A stretch of 51,407 bases of DNA, from NCBI RefSeq assembly GCF_000948395.1, contig NZ_JYFN01000015.1:26049-77455 (forward strand), read 5' to 3'. The notes below the pieces were generated by a model, which was given only the letters and a program-made list of their open reading frames with translations, did no database searches and had not been told where the DNA came from. Source of the DNA: Frankia torreyi. Its GTDB lineage: Bacteria; Actinomycetota; Actinomycetes; Frankiales; Frankiaceae. Both the position numbers and the translations under genes were made by a program. Below, in pieces: positions 2,823-48,852 of the stretch (position 1 is the first letter of the stretch; each line of letters begins with the position of its first letter).

Positions 2823-3140
2823 TCAGGTAGGTCGCGGCTGGAGGGGGGCGGTGTTCAGGTGCTCGGTGGCGTGCGTCCGACAGGGTGGTTCCCGCTCGGG
2901 GCCAGCCGTACGACCTCTCGCGCCGAGCCTGCCGCGCAGAGTCAGGACTCCGCGGGAGACCGCGAGGCGGCCCGTGGCCGGCAGGACGTCGAGGCCCGGG
3001 ACGCCGCCGAGGTCGGGCCGATCGGGCTGGTCGGGCCGGTCGGCGCGGCCGTGGCGGTGGTCGGCGGCCCGCCTCCGTCCGTGCCCGCGCGGCCCGCGGT
3101 CGACGTGAGCCCGCTGCCGGTGGGCCCCCATCCCGGTCCG
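2823..3140. other. Spacer before ppx, possible N-terminal extension
   Basis: This 318-bp stretch lies between the regulator stop and the preferred ppx start. The ppx frame is open back to about 2859, but the encoded sequence is Ala/Gly/Pro-rich with no match to the phosphatase family. It contains an imperfect 9-12 bp repeat at about 3012-3045 (GGGCCGATC, GGGCTGGTC, GGGCCGGTC). No other gene or RNA is seen. Confidence 0.5.
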
Positions 3141-4076
3141 ATGCGGCTCGGTGTGATCGACATCGGATCGAACACCGTCCATCTGCTGGTCGTGGATGCC
3201 CATCGAGGTGGGCAGCCGCAGCCGGCGGCCAGCGTGCGGGCTCCGCTGCGGCTGGTCGAGCTGCTCGACGCCGACGGATCGCTCGGGCCCGACGGCGAGC
3301 GTGATCTGACCGCCTGCGTGCTGGACATGCGCCAGCAGGCGGACGCCCTCGGGGTGCACGACCTCGCCGCCTTCGCGACCTCGGCCCTGCGCGACGCGAC
3401 CAACGGCGAGCAGGTGCTGGACCGGGTCAAGGGGGCGACCGGGATCGCGATCGGGGTCCTGCCGGGCGAGGAGGAGGCCAGGCTCACCTTCCTCGCCGTG
3501 CGGCGCTGGTTCGGCTGGAGCGCCGGGCGGCTGCTGGCCCTGGACATCGGTGGCGGCTCCCTGGAGATCGGCGCCGGCATGCACGAGGACCCGGAGGTGG
3601 TCGCCTCGCTGCCGTTGGGCGCCAGCCGGCTCAGCCGGGACTGGCTGGCCGACAACGACCCGCCCAAGCGGGCTGAGCTCGCCGAGTTGCGGCGCTACGT
3701 GCGGGCGCAGATCGCGCCGGTCGTCGGCACGATCTACCACCTCGGCGAGCACACCCGGGCGGTGGCCACGTCGAAGACGTTCCGCTCGCTGGCGCGCATC
3801 GCCGGCGCCGAGCCCTACAGCCGCGGGCCGTACACCCGCCGGGTGCTGCGCCGCGACGATCTCACCGAGGTCGTGGCGAGGCTGTCCCGCATGCCGGTCG
3901 AGGAGCGGGTCGGACTGCCGGGCGTCTCCGCGTCGCGGGCGGGGCAGCTCGTCGCCGGCGCCGTCGTCGCCGCCGAGGCACTCGACCTGTTCAGCATCGA
4001 CGAGGTGGAGATCTGTCCCTGGGCGCTGAGGGAGGGCGTCATCCTGCGTCGCCTCGACTGGCTCACCTCGGCCTGA
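3141..4076 (+). CDS. ppx: Exopolyphosphatase / GppA-family phosphatase
   Basis: This 311-residue member of the Ppx/GppA sugar-kinase-fold family hydrolyses polyphosphate or (p)ppGpp-type nucleotides; the single-domain short form matches mycobacterial Rv0496 (Ppx1). It begins MRLGVIDIGSNTVHLLVVDA, the phosphate-1 motif, and carries the second phosphate loop LLALDIGGGSLEI near 135-147, preceded by the catalytic-region LPGEEEARL. The ATG at 3141 gives the standard family N-terminus; in-frame GTG 3105 is possible. No clear Shine-Dalgarno precedes either. Position after the phosphate two-component pair matches mycobacterial gene order and fits a role in phosphate/polyphosphate balance. Confidence 0.88.
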   Translation: MRLGVIDIGSNTVHLLVVDAHRGGQPQPAASVRAPLRLVELLDADGSLGPDGERDLTACVLDMRQQADALGVHDLAAFATSALRDATNGEQVLDRVKGATGIAIGVLPGEEEARLTFLAVRRWFGWSAGRLLALDIGGGSLEIGAGMHEDPEVVASLPLGASRLSRDWLADNDPPKRAELAELRRYVRAQIAPVVGTIYHLGEHTRAVATSKTFRSLARIAGAEPYSRGPYTRRVLRRDDLTEVVARLSRMPVEERVGLPGVSASRAGQLVAGAVVAAEALDLFSIDEVEICPWALREGVILRRLDWLTSA

Positions 4077-4405
4077 GCCGCCTGCCGGCCCTCGGCCCTC
4101 GGCCTGCCTGCCTCCCACTTCCTTCCTTGCCCTTCGGGGGAGCAGTATCCGGTTCGTCCCCCAAAAGGGCAAGGTAGCCCGGCCTCAGGGAGGCGGACGG
4201 GGCAGCGGATAGAGGTAGATGTCCGGTTGCGGGTGAAGCGCTGTAGCGGCACGATAACGGGATGTTGCCGTTGTCGCAGGCGATGTGGGGCTACGCACCC
4301 TCGTCCGGCGGACATCGGAGCGAGCGGGTTCGCGACGATGGCCTAGCCTGGAGGAGGGGAACGGTCGAGCAGACCGGTGCCCGGTCCGTACGGCAGGGAG
4401 ATGGT
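4077..4405. other. Intergenic region ppx to TIM-barrel gene
   Basis: A 329-bp gap holding the palindromic repeat at 4122-4174. The downstream gene's frame stays open back to 4262, but codon use there (ATG TTG CCG TTG, AGG AGG GGA, GTA) is unlike the rest of the window, so this is probably leader. No other gene is seen. Confidence 0.55.
4122..4174. repeat. Palindromic intergenic repeat, copy A
   Basis: This 53-bp element is bounded by perfect 10-bp inverted arms, CCTTGCCCTT (4125-4134) and AAGGGCAAGG (4165-4174), with inner GGGGG (4136-4140) and CCCCC (4158-4162) extending the stem. A second copy lies at 45348-45403 with the same left end, same arms and a similar loop. It sits 45 bp after the ppx stop and could act as a hairpin terminator, but two related copies 41 kb apart suggest a dispersed repeat family. 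Confidence 0.75.
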
Positions 4406-41872: not shown

Positions 41873-44004
41873 CCTCTTCCACCCGTCCCCACGAGCCTGC
41901 CGGTGCGGCCACCGACCTCGCGCCGAAGCCGAGCCCCGGCGACCCGGACGCGGCCGATCCGGCGGGCTCCATCGATCCGGCGGGCCTCATCGATCCGGCG
42001 GGCCTCATCGACGAGGAGGCCGTCGGGTTCGCCCCGGATTCCTCGAGCGGACGCCGGCTGCCCGAGGGGCACGCCGACGCCCGCGTGGCCGTCGCGCCGG
42101 ACGTGTTCGCGCCAGCCGGGTCCGACGGGCGCGACGGGGCTGACGGAGCTGCCGGACTCGGCGCCGACCCGACCTCTGCCGGGGGAGCTCGCCGATCCGC
42201 GGCCGGTAGGGCCGGCGGTGCCGCGGGACAGTACGCGTCGGCGTCCGGCGGGACCCGGGCCGGGCGGCATCCGGCGCTGGCGCTCGCCGTTCGCTCCTGG
42301 CGGCAGCTCACCAGCATGCGCACCGCGTTGGTGCTGCTGTTCCTGCTCGCTCTGGCCGCCGTGCCGGGGTCGCTGCTGCCGCAGCGCAACATCAACCCGA
42401 TGCGGGTCGATCAGTACCTGTCGAAGCACCAGACCCTCGGGCCCCTGCTCGACAAGCTCTCCGGCTTCGACGTCTTCGCCGCCCCCTGGTTCGCGGCGAT
42501 CTACCTGCTGCTGTTCATCTCGTTGATCGGCTGCCTGTCGTCGCGCATCCGCTGGCACGCCAGGGCACTGTTCACCGCTCCGCCGAAGGCACCGGCGCGG
42601 CCCGGCCGGCTGCCGGGTGGCAGCTCGTGGACCAGCCCGCTGGCCCCGGCCGATGCGACGGCCGCCGCTCGCGCGGCACTGCGCCGGCGCCGGTTCCGCG
42701 CCAGCGTCGCCCCCGCCGGGACCCAGCGGCCGGACGGCTCGCCGGACCACTCCGTCGCGGCCGAGAAGGGCTACCTGCGCGAGACGGGCAACCTTGTCTT
42801 CCACGTCGCCCTGGTCGGGCTGCTGGCCGCGGTCGGTTTCGGCTCCTGGTTCGGCTACCAGGGGACCACGCTGGTCGTCACCGGGGACAGCATGGCCAAC
42901 ACGATCATCTCCTACGACCAGTTCAGTGGCGGCAAGCTCGTCGACACCGCGAAGCTGCGTCCGTTCTCGCTGACGCTGAACCGGTTCGCGGCCGCCTACG
43001 AGCCGAACGGCGAGCCGTCGGACTTCCGCGCCGACGTCGCCTACTCGCCCGACCTGGACGCACCGACCCGGCAGGCGACGATCCGGGTGAACCATCCGCT
43101 GGTCCTCGGCAACGCCAAGGTCTACCTCATCGGGCACGGGTACGCCCCGCACTTCGTCCTGCGGGACGCCAAGGGCCGGACGGTCTGGCAGGGCAACGTG
43201 CCCTGCACCCCACGGGACGGGATGTTCACCTCGACCTGCACGGTCAAGATTCCCGACACGGGCCTGGCGCCGCTCGGCGTCCGCAAGGAGCCCCAGCAGC
43301 TCGCCTTCAGCGGCGTGTTCACGCCGACGACCCACCTCGACCCGACCCAGGGCTACGTCTCGACCTTCCCGGCGGCCCGCGCACCCGGCCTGACGATCAC
43401 CGGTTTCGTCGGCAACCTTCACCTCGACGAGGGCGTGCCGCAGAACGTGTACACGGTCGACACCCAGGACATGCGCCAGCTCACCCTGAACGGTCCGGCC
43501 GGAACCGCACGCAACGCGCAGGTGCTCGCCCTGAACAACCCTCGGCAACGGACCCTGAGCGGGCTGCCCGGCGGGCTGAGCCTGGAGGCCGACAGCGTCG
43601 CGGAGTTCGCCACCTTCCAGGTGAAGTCCGACCCGTTCAAGCGGGAGGCGCTGATCTTCGCGGTGCTCATCATCGCCGGGCTGATCGCCAGCCTGCGGGT
43701 GCACCGCCGCCGCCTGTGGGTCCGGGCTAGCCCGGCACCCGAGGGCGGTTCGGTCGTCGAGATCGGCGGCCTGTCCCGGTCGCACGGGGACGGCTTCGCC
43801 GTCGAACTCGGTCAGCTCACCACCCTCGTCCGCGAGGCGACCGGCCCGGCCGGCGGGCGGGAGGCGGCGCCGCGGCCCGAGGCGGCGGCACCGCCGCCGG
43901 GCGAGCCCGCGGCGCCAGGCGGCGCCGCGGCGCCGAGCACTACGGAATCGCGCGGCACCGCAGCCGGTGGCGCCGCGTCGAACGCCAGCGAACGGGAGCA
44001 CTGA
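41869..44004 (+). CDS. resB: Cytochrome c biogenesis protein ResB (Ccs1)
   Basis: ResB and CcsB form the system II heme export/attachment complex for cytochrome c. The 711-residue protein has a disordered N-terminus (1-140), then SWRQLTSMRTALVLLFLLAL and WFAAIYLLLFISLIGCLSSR, a large extracytoplasmic domain, a third helix NLVFHVALVGLLAAVGFGSW and a last helix LIFAVLIIAGLIASLRVHRR. His in LVFHV and HRR resemble the conserved ResB His residues. An acidic/Ala-rich tail follows. GTG 41869 overlaps the ccdA stop; the stop overlaps the ccsB start. An 18-bp in-frame repeat lies at 41956-42009. Confidence 0.9.
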   Translation: MTSSTRPHEPAGAATDLAPKPSPGDPDAADPAGSIDPAGLIDPAGLIDEEAVGFAPDSSSGRRLPEGHADARVAVAPDVFAPAGSDGRDGADGAAGLGADPTSAGGARRSAAGRAGGAAGQYASASGGTRAGRHPALALAVRSWRQLTSMRTALVLLFLLALAAVPGSLLPQRNINPMRVDQYLSKHQTLGPLLDKLSGFDVFAAPWFAAIYLLLFISLIGCLSSRIRWHARALFTAPPKAPARPGRLPGGSSWTSPLAPADATAAARAALRRRRFRASVAPAGTQRPDGSPDHSVAAEKGYLRETGNLVFHVALVGLLAAVGFGSWFGYQGTTLVVTGDSMANTIISYDQFSGGKLVDTAKLRPFSLTLNRFAAAYEPNGEPSDFRADVAYSPDLDAPTRQATIRVNHPLVLGNAKVYLIGHGYAPHFVLRDAKGRTVWQGNVPCTPRDGMFTSTCTVKIPDTGLAPLGVRKEPQQLAFSGVFTPTTHLDPTQGYVSTFPAARAPGLTITGFVGNLHLDEGVPQNVYTVDTQDMRQLTLNGPAGTARNAQVLALNNPRQRTLSGLPGGLSLEADSVAEFATFQVKSDPFKREALIFAVLIIAGLIASLRVHRRRLWVRASPAPEGGSVVEIGGLSRSHGDGFAVELGQLTTLVREATGPAGGREAAPRPEAAAPPPGEPAAPGGAAAPSTTESRGTAAGGAASNASEREH
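41956..42009 (+). repeat. 18-bp minisatellite, three units, ResB N-terminus
   Basis: Three in-frame 18-bp units GATCCGGCGGGCCTCATC (first with TCC for CTC) encode DPAGSI, DPAGLI, DPAGLI in the disordered N-terminus of ResB. Units 2 and 3 are identical. Confidence 0.88.
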
Positions 44005-45158
44005 TGGCGGTCAACGAGGGCGTAGCCAGCCTCTCCGATCATCTGTTTGGCAGCGGCATGGCGGTCTACGCCGCGGCCATGCTCGGCTACGCGGCCGAGT
44101 TCGCGTTCAGCCGCCTGGGCGCGCGCCGCGGTGCCGCGGAGCTGGCGGCCGAGGTTCCCGCCGCCCGCGCGGCCGACCGGCCGGCCGTGCTGGTCGGGGC
44201 CGGAGCCCCCGCGGAGGCCGGCTCCGGCGTGGAGATCGACCCGGACGATCCCGCCGCGGCCGCGCTCGCGGCGGCGCGCGCCCGCGAGATCGAGGCGGTG
44301 CGCCAGCGGGACACCGCCGCTCACACCCTGGTCGCCGGCAACGACGGCGACGTCGAGGTGCCCGCCCGTGCCCGGTGGATCGGGCGGATCGCCGTGCTGC
44401 TCACGGTGGTGGGCTGGGCGCTGCACCTGGGTTCAGTCGTCACCCGTGGCATCGCGGCGGACCGGGTGCCCTGGGGCAACATGTACGAGTACTCGTCGAT
44501 GATCTGTCTGATCGCGGTCACGACGTTCCTCGCCCTGATGACCCGGCAGCAGGTCCGTTGGCTGGGCGTCTTCGTCATGGTGCCGGTGGTGCTCTACCTC
44601 GGCTTCGCCGGCACGGTGCTCTACGTCGCGCCCGGACCCCTGGTGCCCGCGCTCAACTCGTACTGGCTGAAGATCCATGTGGTCGGCGCGATCGTCTCCA
44701 GCGGGGTGTTCCTGATCTCCGCGGTGACCACGGTGCTGTTCCTGGTCAAGGAGCGCTGGGAGAACCGGCTCGCCGAGGTGGCGGCCGGCCGGGCCGACGC
44801 CAGCCGCGCGATGCAGAGCCGCGGCGGCATCGTGATGCGCCTGCCGTCGTCCGCGGCTCTCGACACCCTGTCCTACCGGGTCATCGCGTTCGCGTTCCCG
44901 ATCTGGACCTTCGCGATCATCGCCGGGGCGATCTGGGCCGAGGCGGCCTGGGGCCGGTACTGGGGCTGGGACCCCAAGGAGACCTGGTCGTTCATCACCT
45001 GGGTCTGCTACGCGGCCTACCTGCACGCGCGGGCGACCGCTGGCTGGCGGGGCCGGCGGGCCGCCGCCATCTCCCTGGTCGCGTTCACCGCGCTGTTCGT
45101 GGACTACTACCTGGTGAACCTCGTCATCACCGGTCTGCACTCCTACGCGGGCGTCTGA
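44004..45158 (+). CDS. ccsB: Cytochrome c assembly protein CcsB/CcsA (ResC)
   Basis: This 384-residue integral membrane protein works with ResB to attach heme to apocytochrome c. The family signature lies in WGRYWGWDPKETWSFITWVC, with conserved VPWGNMYEYSSM earlier and a C-terminal DYYLVNLVITGLHSYAGV supplying heme-ligating His. Helices follow an N-terminal segment with a charged Ala/Glu-rich loop (about 35-110). ATG 44004 shares its A with the resB stop (TGATG), so translation is coupled. Mycobacterial Rv0529 is the counterpart and ends the same four-gene operon. Confidence 0.93.
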   Translation: MAVNEGVASLSDHLFGSGMAVYAAAMLGYAAEFAFSRLGARRGAAELAAEVPAARAADRPAVLVGAGAPAEAGSGVEIDPDDPAAAALAAARAREIEAVRQRDTAAHTLVAGNDGDVEVPARARWIGRIAVLLTVVGWALHLGSVVTRGIAADRVPWGNMYEYSSMICLIAVTTFLALMTRQQVRWLGVFVMVPVVLYLGFAGTVLYVAPGPLVPALNSYWLKIHVVGAIVSSGVFLISAVTTVLFLVKERWENRLAEVAAGRADASRAMQSRGGIVMRLPSSAALDTLSYRVIAFAFPIWTFAIIAGAIWAEAAWGRYWGWDPKETWSFITWVCYAAYLHARATAGWRGRRAAAISLVAFTALFVDYYLVNLVITGLHSYAGV

Positions 45159-45595
45159 CCCGGCGGCAGTCCGCCGGACCTCGGGGCCCCGGGCCGCCCG
45201 CCTTGGCCCCGGGGCCCTGCGCGTCTCCGGGCCGTGATCAGGGGCACGGACGCGGATGGATCCACGCCGAGCGCGCAACCGCGTCACGTACGTCCGTCGG
45301 TCCGCTCCGCGTGAACCGTTCTCTGAAGCGCAGCGCGCGCGGCCGACCTTCCTTGCCCTTCTGGAGGGCTCCGCGTCCGATTCATCCCCCTGAAAGGGCA
45401 AGGATCGTCCCTCGTGGTGGCGTGAGACTCCACCCCGCGATGATCTTGATCGCTGTGGGGTCGGGTTCAGCCTGACCATGGCCGGCCGGTATGGCTCGGA
45501 GCGAGCGAGCGAGCGAGGCGCGGCTCGGAGAGAGCGAGGCGCGGCTCGGTGCGGCTCGGTGCTGCTCGGCTCGGCGGTGGGGGTTGGGGACGGTG
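45159..45595. other. Intergenic region ccsB / PLDc_N gene (convergent)
   Basis: A 437-bp gap between convergent genes. It contains palindromic repeat copy B (45348-45403) and a simple-sequence tract at about 45496-45575: GAGC repeated as GAGCGAGCGAGCGAGCGAG, then GGCGCGGCTCGG-type repeats. No gene is supported. Confidence 0.6.
45348..45403. repeat. Palindromic intergenic repeat, copy B
   Basis: Second copy (56 bp) of the element at 4122-4174. It starts with the same CTTCCTTGCCCTTC and ends with AAAGGGCAAGG; the perfect 10-bp arms CCTTGCCCTT (45351-45360) and AAGGGCAAGG (45394-45403) are identical to copy A. The interior also aligns (GTCCGATTCATCCCCC against ATCCGGTTCGTCCCCC). It lies about 190 bp beyond the ccsB stop. 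Confidence 0.75.
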
Positions 45596-46012: not shown

Positions 46013-46359
46013 AGGCTGGTCGCTCCTTCCGCTCTCCTTGATCGATTACATCCGGCTCGACATATGGGGTATGAACATCGGTCGGCGGGTGTGTAGTCCC
46101 GGCCCTGCGCGGCATCGCCGAAAGGGGCAGACGAGCGTGCGGTGCCCTCCCCGGAGAGCGCACATGTCGCGGTGATGGCCGGCCCGTGTATCCCTAGTGT
46201 GCCCTCCGGCCCCGGCCCGCGTCCGGCCGGTCCGCCATCGGCCGCCGCCGGCGTCCGCCCGCTCACCGTCACGGCGGCGCGTCGTGACTCCCCGGGTTTC
46301 CGTCGTGACGGATGGTGGGAGGTCGGACGGCCGGCCGCGTCGGCTGCCAGGATGGAGGC
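46013..46359. other. Divergent spacer, PLDc_N gene / ubiD
   Basis: A 347-bp gap between divergent starts, with lower GC near 46045-46075. It should contain both promoters; no motif was distinct enough to call. The ubiD frame is open back to 46312 but ATG 46360 has the ribosome site. Confidence 0.5.
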
Positions 46360-47811
46360 ATGGCCTGGGCGGATCTACGCGCGTTCCTCGCTCACCTCGA
46401 ACGGCGGAAGGACCTGCGACGGATCTCCGTGCCCGTCGACCCCCACCTGGAGGTCACCGAGATCGTGACGCGGGTGGTTCGGGAGCGGGGGCCGGCGCTG
46501 CTGTTCGAGTCCCCCCGCGGCGCCGACATGCCGCTGGCCATCAACCTGTTCGGCACCGAGGCCCGGATGGCCGCCGCGCTCGGGGTCGACCGCCTCGATG
46601 AGATCGGCGACCGGCTCGCCGCGCTGCTGCGCCCGGAGCTGCCGACCGGCCTGTCCGGGCTGCGCGACGCGCTGGGCAAGGCTGCCTCGCTCACGTCCAT
46701 CCCGCCCCGGCGGGTCCGCACCGCGCCGTGCCAGGACGTCGTGCTCAAGGGACCGGACGTCGACCTGTTCCGGCTGCCCGGGGTGCACGCCTGGCCGAAC
46801 GACGGCGGCGCCTTCCTCAACCTCGGTCTCACCCACACCCGCCACCCGGAGACCGGGGCGCGCAACCTCGGGATGTACCGGCTGCAGCGCCACGATGCGC
46901 GCACCGTCGGCATGCACTGGCAGATCCACAAGGACTCCAACGCCCACCACGCCGTCGCCGAGCGGCGCGGGGAGCGGCTGCCCGTGGCGATCGCGTTCGG
47001 CTGCGACCCGGCGGTGACCTACGCCGCCTCCGCGCCGCTGCCCGCCGACATCGACGAGTACCTGTTCGCCGGTTATCTGCGCGGCGAACGGGTGGAGATG
47101 GTCGACTGCCTGTCCGTGCCGCTGCGGGTGCCGGCGAATGCCCAGATCGTGCTGGAGGGCTGGCTGGAGCCGGGCGCGCGGCTCCCGGAGGGCCCCTTCG
47201 GCGACCACACCGGCTTCTACACGCCGGTCGAGCCGTTCCCGGCGCTGCACGTCGACGTGATGACGATGCAGCGCGACCCGGTCTTCCAGACGATCGTCGT
47301 CGGCCGCCCGCCGCAGGAGGACGGGCCGATGGGCAAGGCCACCGAACGCATCTTCCGCCCCCTGATCAAGATGATGATCCCCGAGATCGTCGACTACGAC
47401 CTGCCCGAGGCCGGCGTCTTCCACAACTGCTGCATCGTCTCCATCGACAAGCGCTTCCCCAAGCATGCGCAGAAGGTGATGAACGCGGTCTGGGGCGCCG
47501 GGCTGCTGTCGCTGTCGAAGCTGATCGTGGTGGTCGACGCCGACTGTGACGTCCACGACTACGCCGAGGTGGCCTGGCGGGCGTTTGGCAACGTCGACTA
47601 CGCCCACGACCTGATCACCACGATCGGCCCCGTGGACCACCTCGACCACGCCTCCTACGAGCAGTTCTGGGGCGGCAAGGTCGGGGTGGACGCGACGCGC
47701 AAGCTGCCGACCGAGGGCTATCGCCGCGAGGGCGGCTGGCCCGAGGAGATCGTCATGGACGAAGCGGTCCGCGCCCAGGTGACCCGCCGCTGGAAGGAGT
47801 ACGGCCTGTGA
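46360..47811 (+). CDS. ubiD: UbiD-family prenylated-FMN decarboxylase (menaquinone synthesis)
   Basis: A 483-residue UbiD decarboxylase, which needs the prenylated FMN made by UbiX. It shows LPGVHAWPNDGGAFLNLGLT, GMYRLQRHDARTVGMHWQIH, KDSNAHH, LPVAIAFGCDPAVTYAA, the active-site segment PEGPFGDHTGFYTPVEPFPA and VFHNCCIVSIDKRFPKHAQK. In Streptomyces a ubiD-ubiA-ubiX set (SCO4490-4492) is assigned to the late futalosine menaquinone pathway; the same set and order occur here. ATG 46360 follows GGAGG. Confidence 0.92.
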   Translation: MAWADLRAFLAHLERRKDLRRISVPVDPHLEVTEIVTRVVRERGPALLFESPRGADMPLAINLFGTEARMAAALGVDRLDEIGDRLAALLRPELPTGLSGLRDALGKAASLTSIPPRRVRTAPCQDVVLKGPDVDLFRLPGVHAWPNDGGAFLNLGLTHTRHPETGARNLGMYRLQRHDARTVGMHWQIHKDSNAHHAVAERRGERLPVAIAFGCDPAVTYAASAPLPADIDEYLFAGYLRGERVEMVDCLSVPLRVPANAQIVLEGWLEPGARLPEGPFGDHTGFYTPVEPFPALHVDVMTMQRDPVFQTIVVGRPPQEDGPMGKATERIFRPLIKMMIPEIVDYDLPEAGVFHNCCIVSIDKRFPKHAQKVMNAVWGAGLLSLSKLIVVVDADCDVHDYAEVAWRAFGNVDYAHDLITTIGPVDHLDHASYEQFWGGKVGVDATRKLPTEGYRREGGWPEEIVMDEAVRAQVTRRWKEYGL

Positions 47812-47886
47812 CCACCTCTCCTCGCCCATCCAGAGGGATACATCGGACGCCCATGCCTCCAGGCAAGCAGAAGAGGCAGTGGGTGG

Positions 47887-48852
47887 GTGCTCGCGGTGAG
47901 TGACGCAGCGTTTCTGCCGGGCGCGTCGGGTGGCACCGCCAGGCCCGGCGGAGGTGCCGGCGGCGGCCAGGAGCAGGCGATCGGGCACGTGCGGGCGTTC
48001 CTGCGGCTCGTCGCCATCGAGCACTCGGTCTTCGCGCTGCCGTTCGCCTACATCGCCGCCCTGGCAGCCTCGTTTGCCGCGTCCGGGTCGGTGCACTGGA
48101 CCGCTCTCGCGCTCGTCACGGTCGCCATGGTCGCCGCGCGGACCTTCGCGATGGCCGCGAACCGGATCATCGACCGCGCCATCGACGCCCGCAACCCGCG
48201 CACCGCGGGCCGGGAGCTCGTCACCGGCGCCGTGTCGGTGCGCACCGCCGTGGTCGGCTCCGTCGTCGCCCTCGGCGTCTTCCTCGCCGCCGCCGCCACG
48301 CTGTCCTGGCTGTGCCTCGCGCTCGCCCCGATCGCGGTGGCGCCCCTGGTGATCTACCCGTACGCCAAGCGCTTCACCGACTTCCCGCACGCCGTGCTCG
48401 GCATCGCGCAGGCCGTCGCGCCGATCGGCGCCTGGATCGCGGTGACCGGCCACTGGTCGTGGGCGGCGGTCGTGCTCGGTCTCGCGGTGGGCTCCTGGAT
48501 CGGCGGCTTCGACCTCATCTACGCCTGCCAGGACGCCGAGGTCGACCGCCGCATCGGGGTGCGGTCCGTGCCGGCGCGCTTCGGGGTCCGCGGCGCCCTC
48601 CTCGGCTCCACCGTCACCCACGTCGTCACCTTCGCGCTGTTCGTCGCCTACGGGCTGATGGAGAACAACGGCGCCTGGTGGTGGGCCGGCCTCGCGGTCA
48701 CGGCGGCGGCGTTCAGCTACGAGCACGCGATCGTCTCGCCGAAGGACCTCTCCCGGGTCAACCGCGCCTTCCTCACCGCGAACGGCTTCGTCGGCATCGC
48801 CCTGTTCGCCTTCGCCGTCGCCGACCTGATCAGCCGCGGCCTGTCCGCCTGA
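47887..48852 (+). CDS. mqnP: UbiA-family prenyltransferase (MqnP type)
   Basis: A 321-residue polytopic membrane prenyltransferase, which attaches the polyprenyl chain to the aromatic precursor. The first Asp-rich motif is NRIIDRAIDARNPRTAGREL and the second DLIYACQDAEVDRRIGVRSV; eight or nine hydrophobic helices are visible, with YPYAKRFTDFPHAVLGIAQA typical of the UbiA/MqnP branch rather than MenA. GTG 47887 or 47896 may be the start. It is 75 bp after ubiD and presumably co-transcribed. Confidence 0.9.
   Translation: MLAVSDAAFLPGASGGTARPGGGAGGGQEQAIGHVRAFLRLVAIEHSVFALPFAYIAALAASFAASGSVHWTALALVTVAMVAARTFAMAANRIIDRAIDARNPRTAGRELVTGAVSVRTAVVGSVVALGVFLAAAATLSWLCLALAPIAVAPLVIYPYAKRFTDFPHAVLGIAQAVAPIGAWIAVTGHWSWAAVVLGLAVGSWIGGFDLIYACQDAEVDRRIGVRSVPARFGVRGALLGSTVTHVVTFALFVAYGLMENNGAWWWAGLAVTAAAFSYEHAIVSPKDLSRVNRAFLTANGFVGIALFAFAVADLISRGLSA

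Follow-up and report, generated by a model that had tools for sequence, protein, structure and literature searches.

The closest described relatives of the repeats considered here are miniature elements, of which the bacterial MITEs ERIC/IRU, Correia/NEMIS and RUP are examples. Covarying stems, for their part, are usually read as a strong sign of functional RNA. REP palindromes carry a GTAG/CGTC-type tag motif according to the available part of PMC3733652, and the accessible text of PMC8794818 reports that template switching fixes the base pairing of existing stems. The DNA analysed here, referred to as the window, is a stretch of 51,407 nucleotides from Frankia torreyi (contig NZ_JYFN01000015.1, positions 26,049 to 77,455 of the forward strand). 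Its palindromic hairpins belong, with a probability that we put at roughly 70%, to a genus-wide Frankia family of transposon-derived palindromic repeats (MITE/REP-like), built of hairpins that share a conserved loop of ~17 nt.

The window copies of the family are bare palindromes of ~57 bp. Copy 1 (4121..4177, plus strand) has type I arms and a shortened, diverged loop, and is located between a Ppx/GppA gene upstream (2859-4076) and a same-strand gene downstream. Copy 2 (45347..45406, plus strand), also with type I arms, carries the canonical loop GCGTCCGATTCATCCC, an exact match to the loop pattern, and lies 3' of a cytochrome c assembly gene (44004-45158). The positions given for these two hairpins by the earlier sequence-only reading are exact: CTTCCTTGCCCTTC begins at 4122 in the one and at 45348 in the other, their arms CCTTGCCCTT/AAGGGCAAGG are identical and run to 4174 and 45403, respectively, and each loop has TCCCCC at its end. 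Copy 3 (47824..47868, minus strand; contig C47:73872-73916), a further family member that the same reading did not include, is diverged, with type II-like arms, and sits within a 75-bp spacer between a UbiD-like gene (46312-47811) and a UbiA-like gene (47887-48852). Allowing up to 3 mismatches, CCTTGCCCTTCYGGAGGG has 5 matches in the window against 0.15 expected from shuffles, and these correspond to both arms of copies 1 and 2 and one arm of copy 3. The spacer holding copy 2 is highly variable among species over its whole length; just 3' of the copy, at about 45490-45560, it contains low-complexity GAGCGAGC and CGGCTCGG repeats.

The size of the family was determined in the 7,624,758-base genome of this window (G000) and in its relatives. 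The whole-genome search for the arm pair that had been proposed was run with 15-40 bases between the arms and found 5 places in G000 and 0 in a reversed control. A first covariance model (R1, from 14 copies) reached E ≤ 1 at 83 places in G000, a figure in which many places appear once per strand, and with both strands counted gave 58 matches in G006 and 55 in G012; at E ≤ 0.001 it matched 13 of 13 Frankia-genus genomes and none of 27 others. A second structure model (R2) rests on 31 cores: window copy 2, added by hand, and 30 diverse, ungapped cores that each form 11 or more of 14 pairs. Of 6539 first-look candidates in G000, 150 were scored with R2, which gave at least 54 copies at E ≤ 1e-4; G006 has 53 at this threshold. 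At E ≤ 1e-3 the model identified 67 copies in G005 and 16 in G001. The description of the hairpin as a two-copy repeat thus holds only within the window at high stringency and fails genome-wide, where those 54 or more copies also dispose of the idea that only two exist. Window copy 1 is matched by R1 (E 2.7e-10) and has no R2 match at E ≤ 1e-4, copy 2 scores E 6.7e-15 with R1 and E 1.2e-13 with R2, and copy 3 scores E 1.5e-3 and E 7.5e-6, respectively.

In a survey of 117 genomes, R2 matched all 13 of the Frankia genus, with at least 52 copies in G006 and at least 42 in G012 under the stricter filters of the survey, which scored no more than 53 candidates per genome, and a single marginal place (E 7.5e-4) in the 104 others. 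An exact scan of the collection for TTCCAGAGGG...CCCTCTGGAA returned 8 stretches, 5 of them in Frankia with the family loop and the remaining 3 in Duganella and Trinickia with unrelated loops. The matches in the single-contig chromosome of G006 are spread along its length except for a 1.27-Mb stretch (C1 2.10-3.38 Mb) with zero R2 matches at E ≤ 1e-4, inside which there is a one-mismatch loop match at 3,017,019. An extra hairpin copy (R2 E 1.3e-5) is present in G012 at positions 279-321 of locus L130, a few kb from the copy 3 site. No description of such a Frankia repeat was found in Rfam and the open-access literature to the extent that texts were available, or by a word search of the accessible text of PMC2770080, PMC3733652, PMC6735867 and PMC2267715. 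The window has zero Rfam matches at the gathering score, and in a relaxed Rfam scan of 8 loci the hairpin gave sub-threshold miRNA-precursor matches only. A SAM riboswitch (RF00162, 78.3 bits) at positions 49-164 of locus L003 (G000 contig C99), ~1.3 kb from a hairpin copy, is probably unrelated.

The constant part of the family is its loop of ~17 nt, YTNNGYGYCCGNTTYRT, closed by GGG/CCC. With up to 1 mismatch allowed, the loop pattern GYGYCCGATTYRTCCC has 48 occurrences in G000 and 47 in G006, and none when read backwards. All 45 exact matches (20 in G000 and 25 in G006) coincide with hairpins that R2 lists, whereas 11 of 28 one-mismatch places in G000 and 4 of 22 in G006 lie outside it. A separate RNA with the same loop was considered and rejected, there being no exact loop match outside the R2 list in these two genomes. 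Comparison of 93 copies from three genomes showed that the subtypes are different arms arranged around one inner loop: TTCCTTGCCCTT.../...AAGGGCAAGGAA in type I, CCTGCTTAT.../...ATAAGCAGG in type II, and an additional outer stem in type III. The subtypes are lineage-biased, and remoter Frankia species have still other arms with the same loop. In two remoter species some loops are ~27 nt long, with the GTCCG.TT core kept in most copies; such 27-nt loops, mostly with this core, are found at L330-L354 (G001) and at L335/L337/L347 (G005). The G006 copy at L279 (C1:6842098-6842143), which is orthologous to L051, has an intact stem and a loop swapped for the unrelated CGGTGAGTGGCTTTTTG. In the G000 copies L014 (=L048) and L019 (=L143) the right half-arm is duplicated, in a manner suggestive of slippage or of template switching within the palindrome.

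In two genomes the hairpin also occurs in longer forms. Six copies in G001 lie inside a non-coding repeat of 470-540 bp whose sharp ends, TGCGCCGTCCATGAACGTTTCC and, opposite it, the complement of TGCGCTGTCCGCGAATGTTCAC, are adjoined by CTAG-like 4-mers; the terminal inverted repeats in these six copies are TGCGCCGTCCATGAACGTT / TGCGCTGTCCGCGAATGTT. The long form in G000 is a repeat of 297-318 bp, represented by six type III copies, of which three have clear inverted-repeat ends and three have poorly matched ones, the best being those of L289 (TGCAGCGCCTC/TGCAGCCGCTC, with CTAG on both flanks). Terminal inverted repeats of the clearest long forms begin TGCAGC... or TGCGCYGTCC..., and the flanking 4-mers are perfectly matched in 2 of the 12 long copies (CTAG/CTAG at L289 and CTAC/CTAC at L344), the remainder having at least one mismatch in the 4-mers or ends that are hard to place. 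Some long forms qualify as MITEs by copy number and by terminal inverted repeats. No gene was predicted inside the 12 long repeats by a simple codon-usage script, and no autonomous partner element or mobilising enzyme was found, Y1_Tnp being the sole transposase searched. Pairs of CTAGTG[CT]...[AG]CACTAG within 3 kb were represented, in the loci examined, only by L289 itself. The motif CGTGAC occurs 0.9-1.6 times per copy near long forms and 0.31-0.60 times near short ones, with a background of 0.53. The short forms show no target duplication and no terminal repeats beyond their own arms, and the short copies of the window have no ends of the long-form type.

Positions of copies were compared between species using a set of 171 copies: 56 from G000 (the 54 found with R2, with copy 1 and one R1 place as manual additions), 53 from G006, and only the better-scoring or examined part of those in G003 (26), G002 (20) and G010 (16). 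A copy is present at the same site and in the same orientation in the G006 DNA compared for 20 of the 56 G000 copies, which indicates that many insertions are old; the comparison covers only the DNA of the loci examined, some of its absences are loci with elements not yet entered, and the window sites were rechecked. One further site in G000 and G006 holds copies of different types in opposite orientation, which are therefore probably independent. One type III hairpin of G000 lies in a segment of ~310 bp that is missing at the matching place in G006, beside a type II-like hairpin that both genomes share.

The search of relatives for empty sites, as the sequence-only reading had suggested, was successful for copies 1 and 3. 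The copy 1 site has a different-armed hairpin in G003 (R2 E 1.6e-12), a weak remnant in G010 (E 0.017), a remnant recognised by eye in G002, and zero R2 matches at E ≤ 1 in G001, G004, G005, G006, G007, G009, G011 and G012; the spacer measures 102 bp in G006 and 101 bp in G012, against 153 in G003 and 185 in G000. The copy 3 site contains hairpins in G003, G006, G010, G011 and G012, other-armed in G011 and G012, and has zero R2 matches at E ≤ 1 in G001, G002, G004, G005, G007, G008 and G009; the UbiD stop and UbiA start overlap in G001, G004, G005 and G007. In the copy 2 spacer, only one of the 12 relatives has an R2 match at E ≤ 1, namely G009, where it is weak (E 0.051).

The copies are biased to the 3' ends of genes. 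Of the 153 ungapped, unique copies of the set used for context, 75 are in tandem, 57 in convergent and 7 in divergent gaps, 5 are inside predicted genes and 9 have one neighbour missing, with a median distance to the facing stop codon of 39-72 bases (gene calls being those of the codon-usage script). Gaps of at least 75 bp with an element number 60 convergent, 85 tandem and 7 divergent, compared with 17, 118 and 65 without one, a background that is biased because it was drawn from loci centred on elements. Recurrent neighbour genes were sought among 348 predicted genes at 107 loci and were set aside, most of the clusters listed being orthologous neighbourhoods; paralogous neighbours (10 proteins scanned) proved to be ordinary large families, namely MFS transporters, short-chain dehydrogenases and luciferase-like monooxygenases.

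Arm sequences vary from subtype to subtype and from species to species, and the two sides of the stem covary, orthologous sites included. The diverse alignment A5 contains 66 doubly changed, still paired cells, against 21 when shuffled (0 of 500 shuffles reach 66) and 10-14 in slid controls, in an alignment whose choice of rows favours pairing, 30 of the 31 having been picked on forming 11 or more of 14 pairs. In 64 orthologous pairs, defined as copies that two species share in site and orientation and non-independent because sites and genomes are shared (10 genome combinations), there are 74 WC-to-WC double changes, whereas arms shuffled between sites give a mean of 16 and a maximum of 29 in 500. 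These double changes cluster in adjacent pairs (17 versus 9.8, reached by 14 of 2000 shuffles), and 25 of the 74 are transversions. At one site the left arm reads GCCTTTCCAGAGG, GCCCTTCCAGCGG, GCCTTTCCACAGG and GCCCTTCCAGAGG in four species, with a matching right arm in each. Template switching from arm to arm would account for the double changes seen in orthologous pairs.

If the copies were bidirectional transcription terminators or 3'-UTR stabilisers, the RNA hairpin stopping RNA polymerase or exonucleases at gene ends, then the bias to 3' ends and convergent genes, the median predicted energy of -31 kcal/mol (169 copies of the set) and the pairing kept at orthologous sites would all be expected; such a function, however, requires no common 17-nt loop, relatives have empty sites, and a T-run almost never follows the stem. 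Within 12 nt past the stem, TTTT occurs in 0 of 169 copies on one strand and in 1 on the other, and the T fraction there (0.118 and 0.120) is below the background of 0.141. A hairpin selected as RNA in the transcripts of its neighbours would be expected to tolerate G-U and not A-C, which are otherwise expected one to one, and structured RNAs favour G-U. Counted along the strand of neighbouring tandem genes, 75 copies have 52 G-U and 58 A-C (a count made with no positive control), so that RNA pairing is not favoured, and the 14 core pairs of the 153 copies have 132 G-U and 104 A-C (p=0.08). Over all 20 pairs including outer positions, the loop strand has a significant excess of 252 G-U versus 165 A-C, which speaks against a purely neutral reading and is given little weight because the 14 core pairs are non-significant. 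This excess, the sharing of one loop across stems and species, and the A5 covariation over rows preselected for pairing would also suit a cis-regulatory RNA or small-RNA target, with a protein or antisense RNA recognising the loop in transcripts. Orientation relative to flanking tandem genes is nevertheless not fixed (45 versus 30, p=0.105), the core pairs show no clear G-U preference, and Rfam does not recognise the hairpin at its gathering score; the strand tests do not support the earlier suggestion of a conserved regulatory RNA hairpin. Orthologous copies have an identity of 0.756 in the loop, 0.84 at nine core loop positions and 0.794 in the stem, compared with 0.868 at 4-fold sites in the genes next to them (32,867 sites, each pair counting its genes anew), a comparison weakened by pairs with unlike arms, some of which may be replacements. 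The 4-fold sites were chosen because ungapped and gapped flank identities served badly as a reference (unrelated flanks scored 0.748 when gapped), and are not a clean neutral yardstick because of codon bias in a G+C-rich genome. The near-absence of T-runs, G-U not above A-C and divergence beyond 4-fold sites together argue against both a terminator, which we regard as unlikely, and a host regulatory RNA, which appears very improbable.

Recognition of the loop in duplex or cruciform DNA, as a protein-binding or chromosome-organising site (for example, of a nucleoid or segregation protein), would fit the constant core, the lack of fixed orientation to transcription and the spread of copies along the G006 chromosome, but orthologous copies show no more conservation than 4-fold sites do, the sites of relatives are empty or replaced, and some long forms have transposon-like ends; this reading has little probability. 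With respect to REP elements proper, moved by RAYT (TnpA-REP) acting on the single-stranded hairpin, the copies are palindromic, intergenic, present in tens, foldable as ssDNA and asymmetric in their loop, and Y1_Tnp matches occur in 8 of 13 genus genomes, G000 included. Y1_Tnp (PF01797) has, on the other hand, zero matches at E ≤ 1e-3 in G006 and G012, both copy-rich, for which reason RAYT-driven mobility was dropped, and an invariant foot tetranucleotide of the GTAG/CGTC type was not found by eye in alignments A1, A2 and A5. Membership of the REP family proper, RAYT-dependent and GTAG-tagged, fails on both tests and is the least probable of these readings.

The proposal that the hairpin is a dispersed small element of REP/MITE-like kind survives in kind, borne out by the copy number, the genus-wide family, presence and absence between species and long forms with terminal inverted repeats; its emphasis on the arms does not survive, the loop being the part that defines the family. 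The hairpin unit, at times the centre of a non-coding repeat of 300-540 bp and elsewhere a bare palindrome, would have spread by transposition or copying, probably driven by a transposase in trans that acts on the ends and/or the loop. Copies would be tolerated chiefly behind stop codons and would persist for long as shared insertions, their arms presumably kept complementary by DNA-level template switching and the individual copies having no essential host function. Since orthologous copies are less alike than 4-fold sites, single copies look unconstrained while the loop of the family is constant, as for a mobile family. Recent mobility of the short forms may at most be conjectured. The constancy of the loop across the genus could instead reflect a host factor.

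A more specific, tentative proposal, to which we give only a modest chance, is that a mobility or DNA-processing protein specific to Frankia recognises the loop when the hairpin is extruded; the loop alone would then be constrained, and the stem could drift provided that its two arms do so in step. On this view the repeats would preserve, in nature, the traces of template switching between the arms of bacterial palindromes, and would represent a new class of miniature element that is recognised by its loop and indifferent to its stem. The repeats offer a system in which bacterial template switching can be tested and a mapped insertion family for the comparison of Frankia strains. They also call for caution in RNA-motif discovery, combining strong fixed-site covariation with no clear G-U signature, divergence above that of 4-fold sites and transposon-like long forms.

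Compared with known systems, the Frankia family resembles bacterial MITEs in being non-coding, palindromic, dispersed and intergenic, to which its long forms add terminal inverted repeats and CTAG-like flanks. It is unlike them in that its hairpin loop is common to forms with very different lengths and arms, and in that its short forms have no recognisable terminal repeats besides the stem. The REP/REPIN sequences described in the available text of PMC8266576 are likewise short palindromes present in tens of copies, mostly extragenic and divided into subfamilies that differ between lineages; in the Frankia family, however, the loop is conserved instead of the stem, there is no invariant GTAG foot, and two copy-rich genomes lack Y1_Tnp. 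Quasipalindrome correction by replication template switching, as presented in the accessible part of PMC8794818, predicts arms that, like those of the Frankia stems, change together, and allows this to happen by several bases at once and without G-U intermediates; it is a mutational process and not an element family, and in Frankia it would act on a mobile repeat.
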